Shown here in pieces: positions 93 to 46,617 of a DNA stretch of 49,400 nucleotides. The notes under the pieces were generated by a model. It searched no databases, was not told where the DNA came from, and saw only the letters and a program-made list of their open reading frames with translations. The DNA comes from Candidatus Gastranaerophilales bacterium (lineage in GTDB: Bacteria; Cyanobacteriota; Vampirovibrionia; Gastranaerophilales; Gastranaerophilaceae). Both the position numbers and the translations under genes were made by a program. The stretch is taken from contig CALVAT010000004.1 of the NCBI GenBank assembly GCA_944325565.1, positions 1-49,400 of the forward strand. Reading direction: 5' to 3'. Each line of letters opens with the position of its first letter. Position 1 is the stretch's first letter.

Positions 93-3000
93 CTATTTCC
101 CGACTTTCCATCTGAGACCGGCTGTCAGTGATACACCATTGCGGCCGCCGTTGTGTACCATTGCCTGTCCAAAAGCAAGGAATCTATCCTTAAATCTCTT
201 CTGGACACCTGCTCCATACTGGACGTATGGTTTAATGGACATTTCTGGTAATCTTACATCATTCGCTGTAACTCTGCTATCATCCAGCAAGTTCCATACC
301 ATATTTACTCCTATGTATGGCTGCCAACCGTTCTTTGTATTACCTATGAGTTTTATCCCGGGCGCTAGCTGGATTGCATGGAGTGGGTCGGATTCTATGC
401 GGACTCCTGCTGCGTTGTTGTAATCAAATGTATTTACAAACGTATATGATATTAGGAAGTTGGGCTGTAATATCATTTTGCCGTCCCAGAACTCAAAGTT
501 ATACCCTGTTTTGTTTCCTATACCGGCTAAAAGCATTGTATAGTTTTCTGAGCCGTACATTGTTGTTGCGTCGCCTGCTGTTGCTCCAACAGATAAGGTT
601 GTTGCATTAAAGAAGTTGCCTTTGTAGAACGTTGCTGTTCCGCCTAGTAAGCCCCCGTTTTGATATGCGTCTACTCCTGAGTATCTTTGGCTTGCTCCGT
701 TGTATCCTATGTAACCGGTTAAGACTCGTTCAAAGCCGTTTCTTATTGGGGTTAATTGGCTGTCATAACCTACAAGGGTTCCATAGTTGATGTTGCTTAC
801 TTTGGGGCCATTTTTAAGTGGTACGTTTTCAAAGCTTGCATACGGTTTTACCCAGAACCCTGCATCTTCTTCTTTTGTGAGGAGTGGGGAGAAGGTTCCT
901 ACATCCGTTGCGTCTGCTGTTGGAGATAGAGCATATTTGTTTGCATTTATTATTGATATACGTTCTAAGTACGGAATATTCATAAACGTATCTGCGTGTT
1001 GGAATGCGTAGTTAAATGTTTGCAGTTGGGTTGTATATGCTCCTGCTTGGGTTGCTACACCGGGGGCGAGCACTGAGGGGTTAAACGAGTCTGATATATT
1101 TCCTGCTGCTGTGTTTCCGTTTCCATCGCCGGTTCCTGATATTGCTCTATCGAAGAAGAAGTAGCCTTGTTTGTCGTTTTCATCTACTCCGTAGTTTACT
1201 GTATATTTGTAGATTGGTGAATAGATTATATTCGTTCCTTTGTAGGATACCGGAGAGGTGCCTGTGTATTCTACATTGTTGGCTATTGGTTCATCTGCAA
1301 AAAGAATTTTCACGTTTTCTTTTTCTGTTGTTGATATTAAATTGAGGTCTTTTACGTTTAAGACGGCGTCTTCAGATACGTTGTATGTATCTGCTGTAAC
1401 TCTGTCCATTGACTCATTTGCGAGGTCGACATCAACGTACAGGTCTGTGTTTCCGTTCAAGTTAAGGGTTGGAACGTGCATTGTTCCGATTGTGTTGTTG
1501 TTAAGATACATTGTGCCTGAGTTGAGGGAAAGTGCAATGCTGTTGTTGAACACATCTTCTCTGCCTATGTAGAGGTTTGTGTTATCAAGTGATATGTTTG
1601 CGTTGTTTACATTGTTGTTTATTGCAATTTTTGATTTGTCGTCGCCGTTGAGGGCAAGGGTATAGCCTTGAGCTCCGTCGATTGTGTCATTGATGAGTAT
1701 TTCGCCTTCATTTGATGCAGTCATGTTGATTGTTTTGGAGGAATCGTTCATCTGAATAGCTGAGGTGTTGCCGGTGAACTCTGATTTCCCTGCGTCGGAT
1801 GTTATGTTAAGGTCTATGTTAGATTGTATAGCAGTACCGTCTGTATTTTTGAAGGAAGTATTTGTTAAGTTGACGTTTGCATTTTGGTTTTCTGCTTTTA
1901 TTGCGTAGTCTTTTGCGTTTTCTATAGTTGTATTATTGATGTTCAAGGTTGTTTCGTTTTGGAGGTTGAACATCGTGTGGTTTTGGGCATTGATTGTTGA
2001 GGGGGTTGTTGTGCCAAGACCGTTTATGTTTAAAACGCCTGCTGTTGTTGGGGTTAGGTCTTCTTGTACGTTATATGTATCAGCCGTTTTAAATGTGAAA
2101 TTTCTTTCATTCGCTGATTCTTTTTTATTAATCAATTCCAGAGGATTGTTGTATATTTTATCTTTTTGGATTATCACAGAATCGTGGTAGGTGTCTGTTG
2201 TACCTAAGGATATGCCGTCTTCTTGAGCAAAGATATCAGTGTTGTAGACTGTGTCTGGAATTTGTTCTAAAACGTTATCAACCCAAGGGGTATTTGGGTC
2301 TAATGTCCCTATTATTTTTATATTATCACCTAAGGCCAGCTGTAATGTAGAGTTCAAATTAGCATTGTTTATGACTTGAAATATTGTGGGAACAGAGGGA
2401 TCTAGTTCTGAACCAATGAAGTTAAGGGTGTTTAAATAAATAGTTCCTGTAGAGTTGTTTTCAGTAGAGATTGTGTCAGATGTTGACGTTGAAAAATCTA
2501 AATCAAGGTTTAGTTTAGAGTTTTCGTCGGCTGTCATCGAAGCAAGGTCATAGTTGAGAGTCTGACCATTTGCCATATCGAGAGTTACGTTAGAAGAAGT
2601 AACATCAGCGTTAGTTACAGTGTTGTATAAACTTACCGTGCCTGTGCCGTCGCCGGATATGTTTAAGTTGTAGCCTGAGACACCGTTAATCATGTCGTCA
2701 AAACGGATTGAGCCGTTGTTTCTGGCTGTTAGATTGAGGTTAGAAGAAGAACTGCCGGCATAAATAGCTTCATAGCGCTTGCCATTTGTGTCTTCTACGT
2801 AGTTGCCGGAAAAGACAGACTGTCCGTTGTCGGCTATGATGTTTGTTGTTCCGCCTGATGCATAAATAGCACCGCCTTGAGCTGTGTTTGATTCTGATTT
2901 TGCATAGTTGTTGTAGAAATTGCTGTTGGTTAATGTTATTGTTCCTTCATTATAAATGCCTCCGCCGTTGGCATAGGAATTCGTTGAAGATACGTAATTC

Positions 3001-4928
3001 TCTGTAAAATCTCCTTGTATATTTCCTATTGTTCTTCTATTGTATATAGCACCACCATATACGTAGGCACCTGAGCCTGACGCTGATACATAATTACCGG
3101 TAAAATTTCCATTGATACCGCTTTTTATAGTGCCATTATTATATATGGCTCCGCTATATGCAGGTTTTGAGTCAGAAGAATAGGAATAGTTGTTTATAAA
3201 ATCTCCTGTAATACTTTCTATTGTTCCCATATAATTAAAAATGGCACCACCGTTGGCAGAATTTGTGGACTTTATAACTGATACGTAGTTACCTATAAAA
3301 TCGCCTATAATATTTTTTACTGTCCCCTGTGATAGAGAAATTGCACCGCCAGAAGCTGAATCGGAATTAGTAGCAGAGGCATAGTTGCCTATAAAGTCAC
3401 CATTTATATTGTCAATCGATGCATTTGAACTATCGATTGCACCGCCGTAAACACGAGATCCAACTGCAAAATTGCCAATAAAATCACCGTCTATATTACC
3501 TATAGATGCACTGTTATCGTTAAAAATTGCACCGCCATTTGTATTTATGTTGGAGGAACGATTCGGATTGCCTACGGCACTATTTAAGATAAAATCCCCT
3601 GTTATGCCTTCGATATCTCCACTGTATCCATAATTATAAATGGCGCCACCATAAGCACGTGTGCCTGTTGCATTATTAGCAACAAAATTACCGCTTATTT
3701 CTCCAAGTTTACCATTTTCATTATATATTGCTCCTCCGTATGCATAGGAATTACTCGAAATAGACTGATTTCCTGTGAAATTAACATTTAAATCATCAAT
3801 ATAACCACGTTCTACCTTTATAGCGCCGCCTTTAGAATAATTTCTTGATTTTGCGTAGTTTTCTATAAAATTACCGGTAATGGAGCCGATATCGGTATTA
3901 GTTTCTACAATAATTGCACCGCCGTTTGCGTAACTGGATGGAGCTAATACATAGTTACCAATAAAATCACCTGTAATTGAACCTATTTTGCTGCCACCCT
4001 TGGCGTGTATTGCACCACCAATAATATCTTTAGCTCCTCCTTGAGCATAATTGTAAAGAAAGTCAGCATTTATGCTATCAATTTTGGCATTTTGTCTGTT
4101 AGATATGGCTCCACCTACTGTTTGTTTATTTGATGAGTATACATAGTTTCCTATAAATGCACCATTTATATTTCCAATATAATCATTATTGCATATAGCG
4201 CCGCCCCATCCTCTAGCAGTGCTTTCATGACCTATGTGGTTACCTATAAATATTCCATTAATGTTGTTAATTGTATTATCGTTATTTATCGCTCCACCTA
4301 AGGATTCGGTGCCACCTGTTATATAATTTCCAATAAAGATACTTTGTATATTATTAATTGTCCCACTGTTATAAATTGCACCACCACCTATTTCGCTGTT
4401 ACCTGAAACATAATTATTTATAAAGTAGTTGTTTATTTCGTTAGTTGTGGCGTTATTTGATATAGCTCCGCCGTATCCCGCTGCAGTCTTTTTATAATAC
4501 GTGTTTTCAGTGTTGTAATTAATGTTAATAGTGGTACTGTCGTTACTAGAGGGATTTTCAACAAATTTATAGCTATTGTTTGATGATTCTTCCCAGCCAA
4601 ATGTAGTTGTCTGGTCTCCATTTCCTATGTTTTGGTAGTTATCTTTTAACTCAATCTGGTAATAAACTGGTACAAATTTATTTTCTGTGTCTGACCATTC
4701 ATAGTTAGTTATGGTTCTGTTACCTTCTGCTTCCACCTTTTTTAATACATACACTGATTCTGGATAAACCTGTGGCGGGTTTGTTCCAGGGATTGTTGCA
4801 CCATCTTGGTTGAGTTTATCGAGGGTTGGTACCGGTGCTTGTGCGTTTGCAGTAGGTATTGATAGGTTTATTGTACATAAAAATGCAATTATGCATAGCT
4901 TTTTTACTAACCTGCTATTCTTATCCAT
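93..4928 (-). CDS. Pmp-like autotransporter adhesin with GGAI/FxxN repeats
   Basis: This 1611-residue protein is probably a surface adhesin. A signal peptide is visible: Lys-rich start, hydrophobic core at about 11-25, then Ala-x-Ala near residue 31. Residues 150-690 hold about 18 units of roughly 31 residues. Each has GGAI (variants SGAI, GGGI) followed by FxxN, for example FIGN, FINN, FTGN, FVAN. This pairing defines chlamydial polymorphic membrane proteins and suggests a beta-helix passenger. Residues 690-1330 are Asn/Thr-rich, with two ADTYNV copies. From about 1340 (FWVKPYASF) to the end, alternating aromatic and polar strands fit an autotransporter beta-barrel. The last residue is Lys rather than the usual Phe or Trp, which is odd. 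The gene stands alone, facing away from tdk. Surface placement is inferred; the ligand is unknown. Confidence 0.8.
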   Translation of the reverse strand: MDKNSRLVKKLCIIAFLCTINLSIPTANAQAPVPTLDKLNQDGATIPGTNPPQVYPESVYVLKKVEAEGNRTITNYEWSDTENKFVPVYYQIELKDNYQNIGNGDQTTTFGWEESSNNSYKFVENPSSNDSTTININYNTENTYYKKTAAGYGGAISNNATTNEINNYFINNYVSGNSEIGGGAIYNSGTINNIQSIFIGNYITGGTESLGGAINNDNTINNINGIFIGNHIGHESTARGWGGAICNNDYIGNINGAFIGNYVYSSNKQTVGGAISNRQNAKIDSINADFLYNYAQGGAKDIIGGAIHAKGGSKIGSITGDFIGNYVLAPSSYANGGAIIVETNTDIGSITGNFIENYAKSRNYSKGGAIKVERGYIDDLNVNFTGNQSISSNSYAYGGAIYNENGKLGEISGNFVANNATGTRAYGGAIYNYGYSGDIEGITGDFILNSAVGNPNRSSNINTNGGAIFNDNSASIGNIDGDFIGNFAVGSRVYGGAIDSSNASIDNINGDFIGNYASATNSDSASGGAISLSQGTVKNIIGDFIGNYVSVIKSTNSANGGAIFNYMGTIESITGDFINNYSYSSDSKPAYSGAIYNNGTIKSGINGNFTGNYVSASGSGAYVYGGAIYNRRTIGNIQGDFTENYVSSTNSYANGGGIYNEGTITLTNSNFYNNYAKSESNTAQGGAIYASGGTTNIIADNGQSVFSGNYVEDTNGKRYEAIYAGSSSSNLNLTARNNGSIRFDDMINGVSGYNLNISGDGTGTVSLYNTVTNADVTSSNVTLDMANGQTLNYDLASMTADENSKLNLDLDFSTSTSDTISTENNSTGTIYLNTLNFIGSELDPSVPTIFQVINNANLNSTLQLALGDNIKIIGTLDPNTPWVDNVLEQIPDTVYNTDIFAQEDGISLGTTDTYHDSVIIQKDKIYNNPLELINKKESANERNFTFKTADTYNVQEDLTPTTAGVLNINGLGTTTPSTINAQNHTMFNLQNETTLNINNTTIENAKDYAIKAENQNANVNLTNTSFKNTDGTAIQSNIDLNITSDAGKSEFTGNTSAIQMNDSSKTINMTASNEGEILINDTIDGAQGYTLALNGDDKSKIAINNNVNNANISLDNTNLYIGREDVFNNSIALSLNSGTMYLNNNTIGTMHVPTLNLNGNTDLYVDVDLANESMDRVTADTYNVSEDAVLNVKDLNLISTTEKENVKILFADEPIANNVEYTGTSPVSYKGTNIIYSPIYKYTVNYGVDENDKQGYFFFDRAISGTGDGNGNTAAGNISDSFNPSVLAPGVATQAGAYTTQLQTFNYAFQHADTFMNIPYLERISIINANKYALSPTADATDVGTFSPLLTKEEDAGFWVKPYASFENVPLKNGPKVSNINYGTLVGYDSQLTPIRNGFERVLTGYIGYNGASQRYSGVDAYQNGGLLGGTATFYKGNFFNATTLSVGATAGDATTMYGSENYTMLLAGIGNKTGYNFEFWDGKMILQPNFLISYTFVNTFDYNNAAGVRIESDPLHAIQLAPGIKLIGNTKNGWQPYIGVNMVWNLLDDSRVTANDVRLPEMSIKPYVQYGAGVQKRFKDRFLAFGQAMVHNGGRNGVSLTAGLRWKVGK
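2860..4480 (-). repeat. Coding tandem repeat array of the autotransporter (about 18 GGAI/FxxN units)
   Basis: The codons for GGAI recur about every 90-105 bp, from residue 153 near 4472 down to about residue 683 near 2870. On the plus strand they show as repeated gc(a/g/t)cc(a/g)cc blocks. Units differ at most other positions, so this is an old, diverged protein repeat rather than a recent DNA tandem duplication. Unit spacing varies by several residues. Confidence 0.8.
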
Positions 4929-9187: not shown

Positions 9188-11836
9188 CTATTCGTCATAA
9201 TTATCGTCTTCGTCAATATATTCGGTAATTATGGCGATATTTTTTTCTATTTTCTTGAGCTGCTTTTCCATATTTAATATTTTTTGAGTTAATTGTTCGT
9301 TTTCAACCATTTTTTCGTTTGTAATGCTAATTTGTGAGGCAACGAATTCTAATAACGATTTTAACTCTTGTGAATCAGCCTGTTGTTCTAAAATTTTGTT
9401 AATTTGATTTTGTTGTTCGTCAAGCTTTTCATTGATTTTGCTGAGTGCAGAATCTAATTTTTCAGTAATATTTTCTTCGTCTGAAAGGAGTGTTTTTTTG
9501 ATTTTTGATATATCGTTTTGCAAATTATCAAAAGAATCACTTGCTGTATCAATCCATTCTCCCATATAAACAAAGGCTTCGTTTATAGCATTGTTTGATT
9601 GAACAATGGCTTCTGTACCTCTGGTTATTACTTCTACCTTTTTATTAATATCTTTTAAGAACACAGAGTTGTAAAAAGATTTGCTCTGTTTGTCAAAAGT
9701 GTTAATTAAAGTAGTGAATGCACTAATGTTTGATAAAAGTTTTTTAGTTACTTCATCGGAAGATATAATAAGTTTATTTGTTCTTTTGCTTATACTTGCA
9801 ATATCTTCTGTCAGCCCTGTAAACATTTCTTTTATTTCACTGACCTGATGGGTTATAGGGCTGTCTTGCATTTTTTGTACAGCCGATTTGAGGTCGCTTA
9901 ATCTTGTGGCTATATCAATGCTATGATCTTCTGTTAAGCTGTCAGGATTAATTAATGTTCTTTGAAGGTTAATTAAATCTGTTCTTAACTTAGCTATATC
10001 TGATTCGACATCGGGCATCGTGTAGGATATGTCATTATCTTCTCTGAAGCCGTTTGTTAATAGTTTTATTTTTGATGCTAAATTGCTTATTTCTTCTGAA
10101 ACATTAGCCTTTAAAGACTCATCTATTTTGTTAATACTGCTGACGATATTTTCATTGTCAGATTCTGTTTGAGTTTGCAGTTGTGTAAAGTTTGTCTTTA
10201 ACTCGTTTATGTCTGCGGAAATTTTTGCAGAAGAATTTGTTAATTCTTCTTTGATTTCATCTGAAGATGTAGTTATGTTGTCATTAATATCTTCAGCCTG
10301 TTCTTCAAAAGATATATTGTCTGCTACCTGTACGAGTTGTGTAACAAATTTTGTTTGTAAATTTTGCAGGGCAATTTCAATTTGTTGGCCCTGTTCTTTT
10401 ATTATGAGATTGTTTAATTCTGTTTTCAGATTTTCCAGAGATGTTGATAGCTGTTTAATCTGTTGCGCAGAAGCCACACTTTCTCCAGAAATAATATATG
10501 TGATGTCTTCTTTTAAATCATCAATTTGTTTTACAACATTTTTTATCTGGTCAGAAGTAGCAACGCTTTCCTCTGATATAATATCCGTCAAATCTCCTTT
10601 TAAAATGTTTATCTGACCGGAAATAGCATTTGTTAAATCTTTGTTTAACACTTCAATATTGTCAGAAAGCTCTTTAATTTGCTGATTTGATGCAACGCTT
10701 TCTTCTGATATCATGTCAATAATATCATCTTTAGCAGTTTGCATACTTTTGTCAAAAGTTTCTTGTTTAACAACTGTTTCATCAAGGCTTTTGACAGTAT
10801 CTTTTATTCCCCAGATTTCTTCTTTTAATACTTCTGTACCCTGGAAAAATATTTTTTCTGTATAATTTTTTATATCAGTTATGTCTGCAACATTTAATTT
10901 TGAGAAGATATTTGCTTCAAGCTGTGTTATCAAATTCAGCGAATGATTTTTTATTTCTTCCTTGTTGTTGGCTGCATTTTGTATGAAATCTTCTTTTGTT
11001 GCAAGTTCTTTTAATGTAGCTGAAATTAGTTCTGATTTTTTGAAAATATCAGCAACATCAGTTTTTAATTCCTCAAATGACTCATCATCAAATATGTTTC
11101 CAACAACCTCAACAAGTGTATTCAGGTTGTTATTCAGTATTTCTATGCTTGCATCTGATTCTTGCAATTTGGTTATTATAGAGTCAATCTTGTCTGCAAT
11201 AAAGGTTTTTACATCATCTGTCTGATCAGAAGTTTGTTCAGACAGTTCTTTGACTTTGAACACAAGCGAAGCTAAATCTTCAAGAAGTTTTTTGTTATTT
11301 ATTTCTACTTCTTTATTAAACTGTAATAACTCATCAATCTGATTTTTAAGAGTTGTATTCTGTTCATTTAAAATTGCAAAATCATTGACAATAATTTCGT
11401 TAGTGTCCTGTAAAGTACCGAAATTTTCAAGATGTACAACTAATGCATTGTAGCTTTCTTTCTGGCTTTCTTGTCCTTCTGTCAGATAGTGAATCTGGTT
11501 GTGAATTTTGTTGAATGCAGCAAGCAACTCCGGAGTCTTTAAAGATTCAAATAACAGTTTGTTTAAATTTTCAAATTCTGATTTAATTGCAATAAATTTG
11601 GCATCGAGAATTTCCTGTCGGCTTTGTAGAAGCTGACCTATTTCCTGTCCGAGTGTTCTTATTTCTTCGGTAGTATCTGAATTTGAGAACAAATCCATTT
11701 TTGTGTTAATTTTTTCAAGAATTTGTGCATAAGTAATGCGAAAATCTTCGTCGGTTTGTTCTTTTTGTATGATTTTATCGACTAAAGTATCAAGTCTGTT
11801 TTGTATAACTTCAAAATAACTATTATTTTCTGACAT
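9188..11836 (-). CDS. Giant coiled-coil protein (882 aa)
   Basis: Almost the whole protein is predicted helical coiled coil: Leu/Ile heptads, Glu/Lys/Asp/Asn/Gln-rich, very few Pro or aromatic residues. No signal peptide or membrane segment is visible, so it is probably cytoplasmic or peripheral. An internal repeat centred on I-S-(E/G)-E-S-V-A followed by QIK occurs three times at about residues 375-460, spaced 44 and 29 residues apart. The acidic C-terminus ends EDDNYDE. Such proteins often serve as scaffolds, filaments or chromosome/envelope organisers, but no SMC, chemoreceptor or flotillin signature was seen. It follows pgi on the same strand after 113 bp, with a 7-bp inverted repeat between them. 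Confidence 0.8.
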   Translation of the reverse strand: MSENNSYFEVIQNRLDTLVDKIIQKEQTDEDFRITYAQILEKINTKMDLFSNSDTTEEIRTLGQEIGQLLQSRQEILDAKFIAIKSEFENLNKLLFESLKTPELLAAFNKIHNQIHYLTEGQESQKESYNALVVHLENFGTLQDTNEIIVNDFAILNEQNTTLKNQIDELLQFNKEVEINNKKLLEDLASLVFKVKELSEQTSDQTDDVKTFIADKIDSIITKLQESDASIEILNNNLNTLVEVVGNIFDDESFEELKTDVADIFKKSELISATLKELATKEDFIQNAANNKEEIKNHSLNLITQLEANIFSKLNVADITDIKNYTEKIFFQGTEVLKEEIWGIKDTVKSLDETVVKQETFDKSMQTAKDDIIDMISEESVASNQQIKELSDNIEVLNKDLTNAISGQINILKGDLTDIISEESVATSDQIKNVVKQIDDLKEDITYIISGESVASAQQIKQLSTSLENLKTELNNLIIKEQGQQIEIALQNLQTKFVTQLVQVADNISFEEQAEDINDNITTSSDEIKEELTNSSAKISADINELKTNFTQLQTQTESDNENIVSSINKIDESLKANVSEEISNLASKIKLLTNGFREDNDISYTMPDVESDIAKLRTDLINLQRTLINPDSLTEDHSIDIATRLSDLKSAVQKMQDSPITHQVSEIKEMFTGLTEDIASISKRTNKLIISSDEVTKKLLSNISAFTTLINTFDKQSKSFYNSVFLKDINKKVEVITRGTEAIVQSNNAINEAFVYMGEWIDTASDSFDNLQNDISKIKKTLLSDEENITEKLDSALSKINEKLDEQQNQINKILEQQADSQELKSLLEFVASQISITNEKMVENEQLTQKILNMEKQLKKIEKNIAIITEYIDEDDNYDE

Positions 11837-43439: not shown

Positions 43440-46400
43440 TTAGATTTCAGTAATAAGTCTTTTTACCCTGTCAACACATGCCTGTGAGCTATGCTGCCAT
43501 TCACGGTATGATATTCTTGTGACTTTGTAGCCTGCTCGCTCTAAAATAGTTTGCTTTTTGGTATCAGAAATTTTCTCTTTTGTGTTATCTTCAACACCGT
43601 CAATTTCAACAATGATTTCGCTGCCGGTTTCGGTATCTTTTATAATAAGGTCTGGTAACACTCCTGCTGCTTCGATACCTGCACGTACTTCAAAACCTTC
43701 CATAACCAGTGCCTGTGAAACTTCTTTTTCAAACTCGTTTTTGTATTTATTTTTCTGAAATTCATCATCTTTGGCACTATCAAGATAGTTTTGAATATAT
43801 TCCAGATAATCTTTTAGCAGCCCGGGCGGCAGACCTTTGGGATCTCTAGAAATAAAACAAATAAGTTTTTTACGTGCTCTTGTAATTGCCACGTTAAACA
43901 AATTAGGCTTTTGAAGGAAGGTCAAACTCTGAACAAAGCTGTTTTCAGCAACTGCCCATGACAGAATCATTACATCTCTTTCGTCACCCTGAAAAGTATG
44001 TGCTGTGCCTACTTCTATCTGATGCTTTCGTATAGTTGATTCTGTAAGAACCTGTCGTAGTGCTTTTGATATTAAATCTACCTGTCCTCTAAATGGTGAA
44101 ATTATACCTATAGAAACAGGATGTTCATCGTTGCCCTCGTCAGCGAGAATAAGTTCGTGCACTCTTTTTAATACTGCTTCAACCTCGGGCATGTTGCGTG
44201 TTGCGTCAGAATCAACTTTTCCGTCAGCTACAATATGCAGTTCTAATACATTTTCTGTACCCGCATTTTTTGTCATAATACGTATTCTGTTGCCGTAAAA
44301 TTCCTGATTGCTGAACTGTATTATCGGGTAGCTGCTTCTGAAATGCTCATCAAGCAATACAGGATTTGTTGAATAATAGTTTGCAAGGTCAAACATGGAG
44401 TTTGTTCTGAATCTCCACATAAGCTGATATTTGTCAGGAATATTATACTGGCTAAGGAATGATTGTTCTTTCGCTTTTTCGAGGAATGAGAGATGCGGGA
44501 GCTGTTTGTCATCTCCAACAATTACAGCTTTTTTGGCTCTAAAAAGTATTGGAAAACAGCTTGCAATATCGCATTGTGACGCCTCATCAATAATTGCAAC
44601 ATCAAACAATCCGGGCTTCATCGGCAATGAACCAGATACGGCGTAAGTTGTTAAACACCAGCAAGGAAAGGCTTCAAGAAGTGGTGTGAAATCTTCCTCT
44701 TCAAGCAATCTGTTTTGTAGATTTTTCTTCCTTTCCACAATTGCTTTTGTGTGAACAATCAATCTCTGACGTTTAACCTGATCTCTTAATAGTCCTTTAA
44801 GAGATTCTCTTCTTTTGTTTTTCAGAATGTCAACAGCAAGTGTTCTCTGTTTTTTCTTAAGTTCTTTGATTTGCGCAAGAAGCTGGTGAATGTTGCCGAT
44901 TTTGTGGATTCTCGTTTCGGTCATTCTTGCATTGCATTCCATTTCTTCCGCCTGTAGCTCCAGTGACAACCTCATTATTGACTCTGGATCTGATGGAAGA
45001 GTATTTATATTTAGTATTTTTTTTAGCTTCATTGCAGACATTGTATTTGCAATAGAAGTAAATAATCCTGACTTCTCAAGATTTTTTTCTATACTTGAGA
45101 GTACTTTTTTTATTTCATCAATTTCATCTTTTTTAAGCTTGTGATTAATGTATTCTTTTTCCCCTAAATCCGTTTCTAGGGCAAGCTTTTTACCAATGAT
45201 GTCATGCCACTCTTTTTCAAGAGAAAGTATTTTTTCACATTTGTTTTCTAGTTCTTTTATTGCGTTTAAAAGCTCGTACATGTCATCAACATCGACAAGT
45301 ATTGCATCTTCATACCCTGTATCAATATCTATTTTGTTGGCAATAAGGTCCTGAAGCTGAAAACTAAGCTGTTTTTGATAGTTTAATCTTCCAGCCCTTA
45401 GAGCAAGGAAAGGTGCTCCTAGTTCATTTAATCTCTGCGCTACAACGTCAACGGCTTTATCCATACGAGAAGCAACTAAAACAGTTTTTCCGTTAGCGAC
45501 AAGATGTGCAACAAGGTTAACAATCGTTTGCGATTTGCCTGTACCAGGCGGGCCATAAACTGCAAGCAGTGTATTTTGCTCAATTTTCTTGATTACATCT
45601 TCCTGTGAATCGCTTAAAGATAAAGGTGTTACTGCACAAAAATCGGACATATCTTTTGGCTCTTTATTTGATTTATCAAAAAGTTTGCCTATGCCTCTGA
45701 GATATTCGTCATTTACTACCGACAGAGCGGTTTCTCTGAATACGCCGCTTGGCTTTTCTGCAATTTGTGTAAGCTCATGCAAAACACCTGCAGTAATAGA
45801 AGGACGTTTTGTTAAAATAACTGCACTCTGGCTTGTTATTGAAACTTTATCCAGCTTCATAACAGGTCTTGGTGCACTTGTTTCTTCTATAAAATCTTCT
45901 ACGTTTTCTGAATCTATTTTTTGATAGAAATTATCAGCCTCATCTTTTACATAGTTTTCATTCGCGTCATCTTCGTGATTGAGAGAAATTTCAACATCTG
46001 GTAAAATGGATTTTAATGTAGTTAAAAATATATTTAGTTTTTCTTGAGTCAATGGAAGTTCGGGAACTACTTCCAAAAGTCCGTCGAGCATGTGTTCCAT
46101 CTCATCTTCGTCATCGCTTTTTCTCATCAAAGCAGTTAAAGCGCCGGTATTAAGCGACAATACATCATCTTGAAGCGTGCAAACTATATCCATACCTTCT
46201 CTGTCAAGCTTGCAAGGTGCATATAAAAGCGGTGTCAAAAATTCGTTGCTTCTTTTTGTACGCGAATTTTTACCTACAAGAAACAAATGTCCGTATATAA
46301 GATATTTATCCTTCTGGCTCATTTCGCTTTGTATCATAAGTTCAGTCAAATCACTGTCCGAGCCGTCCAGATGCAAAGGTTCATCAAACTTTGTAAACAA

Positions 46401-46571
46401 AGCTTCATCACCTTTTATAAAAATCCATTTGTTGTCTTTATCCTGTTTCAGATTGCGAAATGTCGAACTTTGAACTTCTTCCCTAACACAATCATGCAGG
46501 TAGAGACTTAATCTTTTAATAAAACTGTCGTGAAATGCCGACTGAATAATTTTTGTAGCTTCTTGTAACAT
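43440..46571 (-). CDS. Superfamily 1 helicase fused to a Vsr/DUF559-like nuclease
   Basis: A 1043-residue multi-domain protein. Residues 1-300 are an unrecognised N-terminal domain. The Upf1/Dna2-like helicase core has Walker A GPPGTGKSQT near 340, a coiled-coil insertion (about 430-600), DEAS Walker B near 661, GDDKQLP near 690, RSSYP, the motif V region HTFQGDERDV and motif VI VAITRARKK. Residues 930-1043 resemble a PD-(D/E)xK nuclease of the Vsr/DUF559 type: LPDLII, then IIVEIDG, a later Asp-Lys pair and GYKVTRIS. The family is known in phage defence and DNA repair settings, but the role here is open. The ATG has no Shine-Dalgarno and lies close to a -10 box, so the mRNA may be almost leaderless. 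Confidence 0.85.
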   Translation of the reverse strand: MLQEATKIIQSAFHDSFIKRLSLYLHDCVREEVQSSTFRNLKQDKDNKWIFIKGDEALFTKFDEPLHLDGSDSDLTELMIQSEMSQKDKYLIYGHLFLVGKNSRTKRSNEFLTPLLYAPCKLDREGMDIVCTLQDDVLSLNTGALTALMRKSDDEDEMEHMLDGLLEVVPELPLTQEKLNIFLTTLKSILPDVEISLNHEDDANENYVKDEADNFYQKIDSENVEDFIEETSAPRPVMKLDKVSITSQSAVILTKRPSITAGVLHELTQIAEKPSGVFRETALSVVNDEYLRGIGKLFDKSNKEPKDMSDFCAVTPLSLSDSQEDVIKKIEQNTLLAVYGPPGTGKSQTIVNLVAHLVANGKTVLVASRMDKAVDVVAQRLNELGAPFLALRAGRLNYQKQLSFQLQDLIANKIDIDTGYEDAILVDVDDMYELLNAIKELENKCEKILSLEKEWHDIIGKKLALETDLGEKEYINHKLKKDEIDEIKKVLSSIEKNLEKSGLFTSIANTMSAMKLKKILNINTLPSDPESIMRLSLELQAEEMECNARMTETRIHKIGNIHQLLAQIKELKKKQRTLAVDILKNKRRESLKGLLRDQVKRQRLIVHTKAIVERKKNLQNRLLEEEDFTPLLEAFPCWCLTTYAVSGSLPMKPGLFDVAIIDEASQCDIASCFPILFRAKKAVIVGDDKQLPHLSFLEKAKEQSFLSQYNIPDKYQLMWRFRTNSMFDLANYYSTNPVLLDEHFRSSYPIIQFSNQEFYGNRIRIMTKNAGTENVLELHIVADGKVDSDATRNMPEVEAVLKRVHELILADEGNDEHPVSIGIISPFRGQVDLISKALRQVLTESTIRKHQIEVGTAHTFQGDERDVMILSWAVAENSFVQSLTFLQKPNLFNVAITRARKKLICFISRDPKGLPPGLLKDYLEYIQNYLDSAKDDEFQKNKYKNEFEKEVSQALVMEGFEVRAGIEAAGVLPDLIIKDTETGSEIIVEIDGVEDNTKEKISDTKKQTILERAGYKVTRISYREWQHSSQACVDRVKRLITEI

Positions 46572-46580
46572 AATACTTTA

Positions 46581-46595
46581 ATTATACAGTATAAT
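46581..46595. promoter_or_regulatory. Symmetric divergent -10 element
   Basis: ATTATACAGTATAAT is a perfect palindrome around one central base. It supplies TATAAT to both strands: 46590-46595 for the plus gene and 46586-46581 for the helicase. The helicase ATG begins only 9 nt past its -10 box, suggesting a leaderless or very short leader. Confidence 0.5.
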
Positions 46596-46600
46596 ACTTC

Positions 46601-46617
46601 GTTCGTATCATACGAAC
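46601..46617. promoter_or_regulatory. Operator-like palindrome between helicase and 46660 genes
   Basis: GTTCGTATCATACGAAC: a perfect 7-bp inverted repeat with a 3-bp centre. It lies next to the symmetric -10 box, at about +1 to +16 of the predicted plus-strand transcript and in the spacer/-35 zone of the minus-strand promoter. This is a position typical of a repressor that controls both genes. Confidence 0.55.

Follow-up and report, generated by a model that had tools for sequence, protein, structure and literature searches.

A lineage-core SF1 helicase of Gastranaerophilales with a Vsr-type nuclease tail and a probable divergent DUF4011-like N terminus

The window analyzed here, a 49,400-nt stretch of a Candidatus Gastranaerophilales genome (assembly GCA_944325565.1, contig CALVAT010000004.1, positions 1 to 49,400), carries on its minus strand a coding sequence (43440..46571) for a protein of 1043 aa, which joins an N-terminal domain, a superfamily 1 (SF1) helicase of the Upf1/Dna2 type, and a C-terminal Vsr-type nuclease, as read from the open reading frame (ORF), Pfam, and the orthologs. 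On balance, the data favor its interpretation as an order-specific housekeeping nucleic-acid helicase belonging to the lineage core of Gastranaerophilales, an order of gut, nonphotosynthetic Cyanobacteriota; that its core status reflects maintenance is something that we infer. The original prediction, made from the sequence alone, had proposed a possible role in phage defense or repair, the first of which is at odds with an order-wide single-copy gene that lies mostly among ordinary chromosomal genes.

At E ≤ 1e-10, the gene was found in 57 of the 59 genomes searched, its own included, i.e., in 57 of the 58 genomes of the order. The two misses are G048, an order member that is 87% complete, and G058, the sole genome from another order; the gene is split in pieces in some less complete genomes. 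A class sample of 118 genomes, whose group sizes come from a separate listing of the same 118 genomes, returned it at E ≤ 1e-40 in 45/45 members of the window's family and in 0/73 genomes of other orders. A profile of the N-terminal domain matched 132 of 291 phylum genomes, all of them within the order (131 of the 132 members of the family, the miss being G328, plus G040), with no match in the remaining 158. The class search, this phylum search, and the RecD2 search described below scored the best 6, 7, and 8 candidates per genome, respectively, and their absences are those of the search tallies, which give 53, 139, and 79 of the matchless genomes, respectively, as totals rather than individually. 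The gene is single copy in the window genome, and one close copy per genome was found elsewhere. Among its relatives in genome contigs (best 80 of 201), the closest named records are Candidatus Gastranaerophilales metagenome-assembled genomes (MAGs), with 97% identity. The gene also occurs, at 63 to 84% identity, in records titled Brachyspira, Clostridiaceae, and Clostridia (L125, L127, and L078), which suggests mislabeled MAGs.

Identity to the window protein is 84 to 97% within the genus, 57 to 68% in other genera of the family, and ∼50 to 61% over length in other families. Across 40 related genomes, helicase identity correlated with that of ThrS (Spearman rho of 0.93), leaving out genomes in which the helicase is fragmented, as well as G016 and G018, whose ThrS is split in two, G049, whose ThrS is partial, and G044, in which ThrS found no match. 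On a tree of 28 rows, built with a quick method from the N-domain and helicase only, the window's family and five other families of the order (f2, f3, f4, f6, and f7) each form groups, with three forks open. The fall of identity with taxonomic distance, the ThrS correlation, and the family groups on the tree together fit vertical descent. Matches in plasmids (30 rows listed of 575 records) covered at most 65% of the query at ∼27 to 34% identity. A phage-borne origin was rejected, as the 38 candidate stretches picked out of viral contigs by two short patterns included no confirmed relative and only 9 of 50,697 phage records showed matches, all partial and none covering 80% of the query. The open-access literature yielded no paper recognizable as dealing with the Gastranaerophilales gene.

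The ORF starts with an ATG at 46571 and stops at 43440, and it is not a chance product because its orthologs span the whole length at 50 to 97% identity. Pfam assigned AAA_11 to aa 319 to 505 (E of 1.1e-27), AAA_12 to aa 725 to 906 (E of 1.5e-25), and the MTES_1575 restriction endonuclease family (PF18741) to aa 947 to 1038 (43458..43733, minus strand; E of 2.2e-12; 47.3 bits versus a cutoff of 38.2, and 52.3 bits in a second scan), with DUF559 marginally above its threshold (21.2 versus 20.6). These four matches bear out the predicted combination of an Upf1/Dna2-like helicase and a Vsr/DUF559-type nuclease in one chain. Alignment of the orthologs located, on the same strand, the helicase motifs that we take to be motif I (Walker A; GPPGTGKSQT, aa 340 to 349, 45525..45554), motif II (Walker B; IIDEAS, aa 660 to 665, 44577..44594), and, within the second RecA-like domain (AAA_12; 43854..44399), motifs IV, V (GTAHTFQGDERD), and VI (NVAITRAR). 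With both RecA-like domains and motifs I to VI present, the protein is an SF1 helicase of the Upf1/Dna2 type (AAA_11/AAA_12). A long and fast-evolving helical insertion or stalk (aa 428 to 612; 44736..45290, minus strand) is apparent in the alignment and in a full-length model of moderate confidence (predicted local distance difference test [pLDDT] of 65.8; predicted template modeling score [pTM] of 0.47). In this model, aa 946 to 1042 display an order of strands and helices that is compatible with the one expected of Vsr-type nucleases; no Vsr structure appeared among the 50 Foldseek rows listed for it.

Constraint along the protein was assessed on 101 alignment rows (the window, 80 named loci, and 20 further loci, with some genomes taken twice), the 80 named loci being put in the window's family by identity (∼62% or more) and not by taxonomic call. 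The helicase motifs vary little or not at all, and invariant positions number 100/310 in aa 621 to 930, 10/200 in aa 421 to 620, and 6/104 in the nuclease. Versus seven close relatives, the nonsynonymous substitution rate (dN) was 0.010 to 0.061 for the N-domain and the helicase and 0.091 to 0.146 for the nuclease; the ratios to the synonymous rate (dS) are low though rough, because dS is saturated. In the nuclease, the motif of the family led us to take D974 (43650-43652), E989 (43605-43607), and D991 (43599-43601) as the putative catalytic triad, with positions taken from the alignment (43599..43652, minus strand). All three putative catalytic acidic residues are present in the window protein, in line with the original prediction of a nuclease. 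Among the 17 rows from the order's other families, the triad is incomplete in 10 (f3, 6/6; f4, 2/2; f7, 2/3) and intact in the rest (f2, 2/2; f5, 1/1; f6, 3/3; f7, 1/3), with family f3 (L142 to L158) displaying a graded decay through DEN, DEV, SEI, SEA, and KEA. E989 is unchanged in all rows, and an REW motif near the C terminus is identical across 101/101. The tree implies three or more changes in the triad, by raw count without a shuffled-label control. The putative catalytic residues have been lost recurrently outside the window's family, while helicase motifs I to VI are kept in 17/17 of the same rows with conservative swaps (e.g., motif II reads DESS instead of DEAS in 5/6 f3 rows). If these residues are catalytic, cleavage by the nuclease is thus not what the whole order conserves.

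The surroundings of the gene are mostly ordinary chromosomal genes. By inspection of translations, its neighbors in the window resemble alanine dehydrogenase, pyrF, tsaD, and thrS, next to an HU-like protein and an unknown one of 304 aa, and Pfam identified a SpoIID protein. In agreement with the original prediction, no restriction, methylase, or CRISPR genes were seen adjoining the gene in the translations inspected, part of the window proteins having been scanned. The 101 loci fall into several different contexts, and their largest neighbor clusters include, as named by inspection, thrS-, tsaD-, pyrF-, and alanine-dehydrogenase-like genes. We then considered the 123 nearest neighbors from 68 of 70 chosen loci (two gave none), excluding those >900 aa or cut at the locus edge. 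At most 5 of them, and probably 3, matched defense models at 1e-10; the models concerned, with one member each, are MzaA, three Specificity_II models, and PrimPol.

More distant paralogs, present in 7/59 genomes, offer a contrast. Eight of them were examined in seven loci (six of those seven genomes plus G143 of the class sample), and 2/8 matched PDC-S37, a PADLOC candidate defense model, along the greater part of its profile (scores of 1164.4 and 1352.1 bits; positions 8 to 1346 and 4 to 1343 of 1550). Defense models were matched by 3/13 paralog neighbors, two of them sharing a locus, which is a modest contrast with the window-gene neighbors in small numbers (Fisher p of 0.012 to 0.029). One PDC-S37-matching paralog lies in tandem with a 909-aa helicase, and rarer SF1 helicase paralogs were observed at L193:4287-12268 (G049) and L194:5889-10154 (G034). 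The hallmarks of phage defense, namely, a patchy distribution and a neighborhood of defense genes, are thus not those of the window gene, which occurs in 57/58 order genomes and has few defense-model neighbors compared with its paralogs. Because its homologs lie largely in core, nondefense contexts, the defense reading is not supported.

What nucleic acid the helicase acts on is a separate matter. Its best sequence match among solved structures in the PDB is IGHMBP2 (6.9e-21), followed by UPF1, Sen1, and Dna2, and Foldseek paired the full-length model with Aquarius, SETX, UPF1, Sen1, IGHMBP2, and Dna2 at good E-values and low TM-scores (0.16 to 0.26 by query length). The window protein shares motifs I to VI with IGHMBP2, UPF1, SETX, and Dna2 but differs from them in its N-terminal and nuclease domains, and it scored 151 bits versus the 348.9 required for the IGHMBP2 family (TIGR00376). 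The prominence of IGHMBP2, UPF1, SETX, Sen1, and Aquarius among these matches tentatively suggests an RNA-directed, Upf1/SETX-like helicase whose targets would be transcripts, R-loops, or the turnover of tRNA and mRNA. A frequent neighbor points in the same direction: the commonest neighbor cluster, divergent and directly upstream in 28/101 loci, seemingly corresponds to a PolyA_pol/CCA-adding-type gene, as PolyA_pol was matched by 20/123 neighbors in Pfam. However, this neighbor runs divergently and does not accompany every copy, DNA is the usual substrate of Vsr-type domains, and Dna2 also sits among both the sequence and the fold matches, so the substrate is not readable from the fold.

The N-terminal domain is long, as originally described, but it is probably not an unknown one. 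Its alpha/beta region (aa 45 to 200; 45972..46439, minus strand), delineated by hhalign and the predicted model, probably represents a divergent DUF4011-like domain. Pfam found zero matches in the N terminus up to E of 10, thus none to DUF4011 (PF13195). A Bernardetia helicase (L163) that does carry DUF4011 (Pfam, 2.2e-11) was aligned by tblastn in two pieces, within 114-925, and the two N termini matched by BLASTP with an E of 0.003 in an alignment starting at a PLL-P-L-N core. With the 101-row profile, hhalign gave 90.9% to L163 alone and 61.4% to six DUF4011-type sequences, L163 among them; the controls, which cover the six-sequence set and not L163 alone, reached ≤1.6% in 40 column-shuffled versions and 2.6% upon reversal. 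Weaker results were 11.0% to L163 with a smaller profile and 9.1%, with the 101-row profile, to the five DUF4011 sequences minus L163. A model of the N-domain (pLDDT of 67.5) had no PDB match at E ≤ 0.001 by Foldseek and none with Z ≥ 5 by VIA-align. Since Pfam is silent, the similarity is of the profile-profile kind only, and the sequence evidence is mixed, we use the label "DUF4011-like" instead of DUF4011, for what judging from sequence is probably a divergent relative of this domain of Hhe-type helicases.

By its build, the window protein falls in a wide group of bacterial helicases of the Upf1/Dna2-like kind that have a DUF4011-type N terminus and a Vsr-type C terminus, and it probably derives from the DUF4011/Hhe class. 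Hhe (NF042953; PADLOC PDLC02194) and PDC-S37 (PDLC05009) similarly consist of an SF1 helicase followed by an MTES_1575/Vsr-type nuclease, and their N terminus is probably of the same kind, NCBIfam naming Hhe a DUF4011 protein. However, their profiles are 1550 to 1911 long versus 1043 aa, no DUF3320 is among the 25 Pfam hits listed of the 26 for the window protein, and the window gene is core instead of patchy. PDC-S37 was the best PADLOC match (214.8 bits) over positions 717 to 1340 of 1550, short of full-profile membership, and its best stretch (437 to 1042) comprises the helicase and nuclease only. The same part of the protein (best stretch, 433 to 1042) aligns with ProA (NF058533), which has a profile length of 1903 and a curated cutoff of 1500 bits, versus 208.8 scored; the cutoffs were similarly missed for Hhe (129.7/2000) and PLuB (134.3/999). 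MkoA and MkoC of Mokosh (PDLC03920/PDLC03924) share the SF1 helicase core. Mokosh is described with a PLD-like domain in PMC10952713, whereas the window protein has MTES_1575 and no PLD among the listed Pfam families, and it fell short of MkoC membership. Fusions of SF-I helicases to Vsr nucleases, with HEPN and transglutaminase domains, were described in 2013 (PMC3710099); the window protein resembles them in its helicase-nuclease junction, but none of the same listed hits is to HEPN, transglutaminase, or wHTH/DUF3320.

These relatives raise the alternative of a fixed core innate immunity, in which a Hhe/PDC-S37-like protein, universal in the order, would recognize and degrade foreign DNA. 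We consider it less likely, though of real probability, and several observations weigh against a housekeeping helicase and on its side. Hhe, PDC-S37, ProA, and MkoC, to whose models (and that of MkoA) the protein has partial matches, are its nearest named relatives and comprise anti-phage proteins and candidates for that role. All 84 rows assigned to the window's family keep the complete nuclease triad, which means that cleavage may be important in that family. Weighing only against the housekeeping reading, no conserved synteny links the gene to a pathway in the 101 loci. In Pseudomonas aeruginosa, a large DUF4011 gene is reported to be present in every isolate and to flank a defense hotspot (PMC10250203), and because of this precedent core status alone settles function neither way. 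On the other hand, the scores for ProA and Hhe lie far under the curated cutoffs, defense-model matches among the neighbors are few, and the triad is incomplete in most other-family rows in which the helicase motifs are retained. Most of the N-domain is highly conserved, a pattern that hardly points to an arms-race sensor.

Slightly less probable still is a role in DNA end processing, in which a Dna2-like factor would make up for the loss of RecD2 and AddAB-type enzymes; like the RNA-directed role, it is mostly a sub-case of the housekeeping helicase. In the class sample, RecD2 occurs in 0/45 family genomes versus 19/73 others, and AddAB-size PF12705 proteins (≥800 aa) occur, by hand count, in at least 18/45 versus at least 54/73 (Fisher p of 0.00005 for RecD2 and 0.0004 for PF12705, for related and thus not independent genomes); Dna2 is also among the Foldseek matches. 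However, the 54/73 other-order genomes without RecD2 are also without this helicase, as is family f12 of the same class, which has no PF12705 in 9/10 genomes (E ≤ 1e-5), and the incomplete triads of other families fit an end-processing nuclease poorly. The RecD2/AddAB contrasts make a repair role possible and worth testing but do not show it. A small PF12705 protein (∼200 to 240 aa) is common in the window's family, 22/45 genomes showing a single match of 203 to 236 aa.

Upstream of the gene, a promoter-like pair (46581..46609, minus strand) was recognized by eye, with TATAAT (46581-46586), a 17-nt spacer, and GATACG (46604-46609). TATAAT ends 9 nt before the ATG, and a spacing of 8 to 9 nt recurs in nine copies, the window included, versus ∼30 nt or more in the other congeners viewed (by eye); the near-leaderless start originally noted thus holds. 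A -35-like TAYGATACR element lies ∼17 nt ahead of TATAAT, as judged by eye, in each of the 23 congener loci viewed. A perfect palindrome, GTTCGTAT-C-ATACGAAC (full form, GTTCGTATcATACGAAC; 46601..46617), overlaps this element in the window. It exists, but its designation as the adjacent operator of the original prediction lacks support: it has a single exact copy in the whole genome, and sites within 3 mismatches number 5 (forward strand, own included) versus 12 for a backwards control, so that a repeated operator or regulon was rejected. The perfect form over GATACG is restricted to the window genome among the 23 congener loci, which keep only the shorter TAYGATACR-like motif, and the claim of tight control found no supporting evidence. 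Elsewhere in the window, two large ORFs have no Pfam match at E of 0.001 (93-4928, minus strand, 1611 aa; 9188-11836, minus strand, 882 aa).

As a housekeeping helicase, the protein would act as an ATP-driven SF1B translocase, probably moving 5′ to 3′, the polarity of Upf1, IGHMBP2, and Dna2. The N-domain and the long stalk may position the substrate in routine chromosomal or RNA maintenance, e.g., the clearing of structured ends, flaps, or RNA-DNA hybrids. The nuclease tail can probably still cut in the window's family and a few others, whereas in several families it may be kept as a fold, perhaps one that binds nucleic acid. A speculative history starts at the base of Gastranaerophilales, where a defense-class helicase-nuclease of the DUF4011 type would have joined the core genome and turned into a helicase indispensable for genome or RNA maintenance, perhaps replacing lost RecD2/AddAB activities; the nuclease would then have decayed at least a few times, with the helicase and N-domain fixed. 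Proteins built this way are familiar chiefly as anti-phage factors, actual or candidate, and the window protein is an architectural cousin that behaves as a core gene order-wide, a warning that domain order alone is insufficient for calling defense. With its natural series from intact to decayed nucleases, the order offers a natural test of the function of the helicase half on its own.

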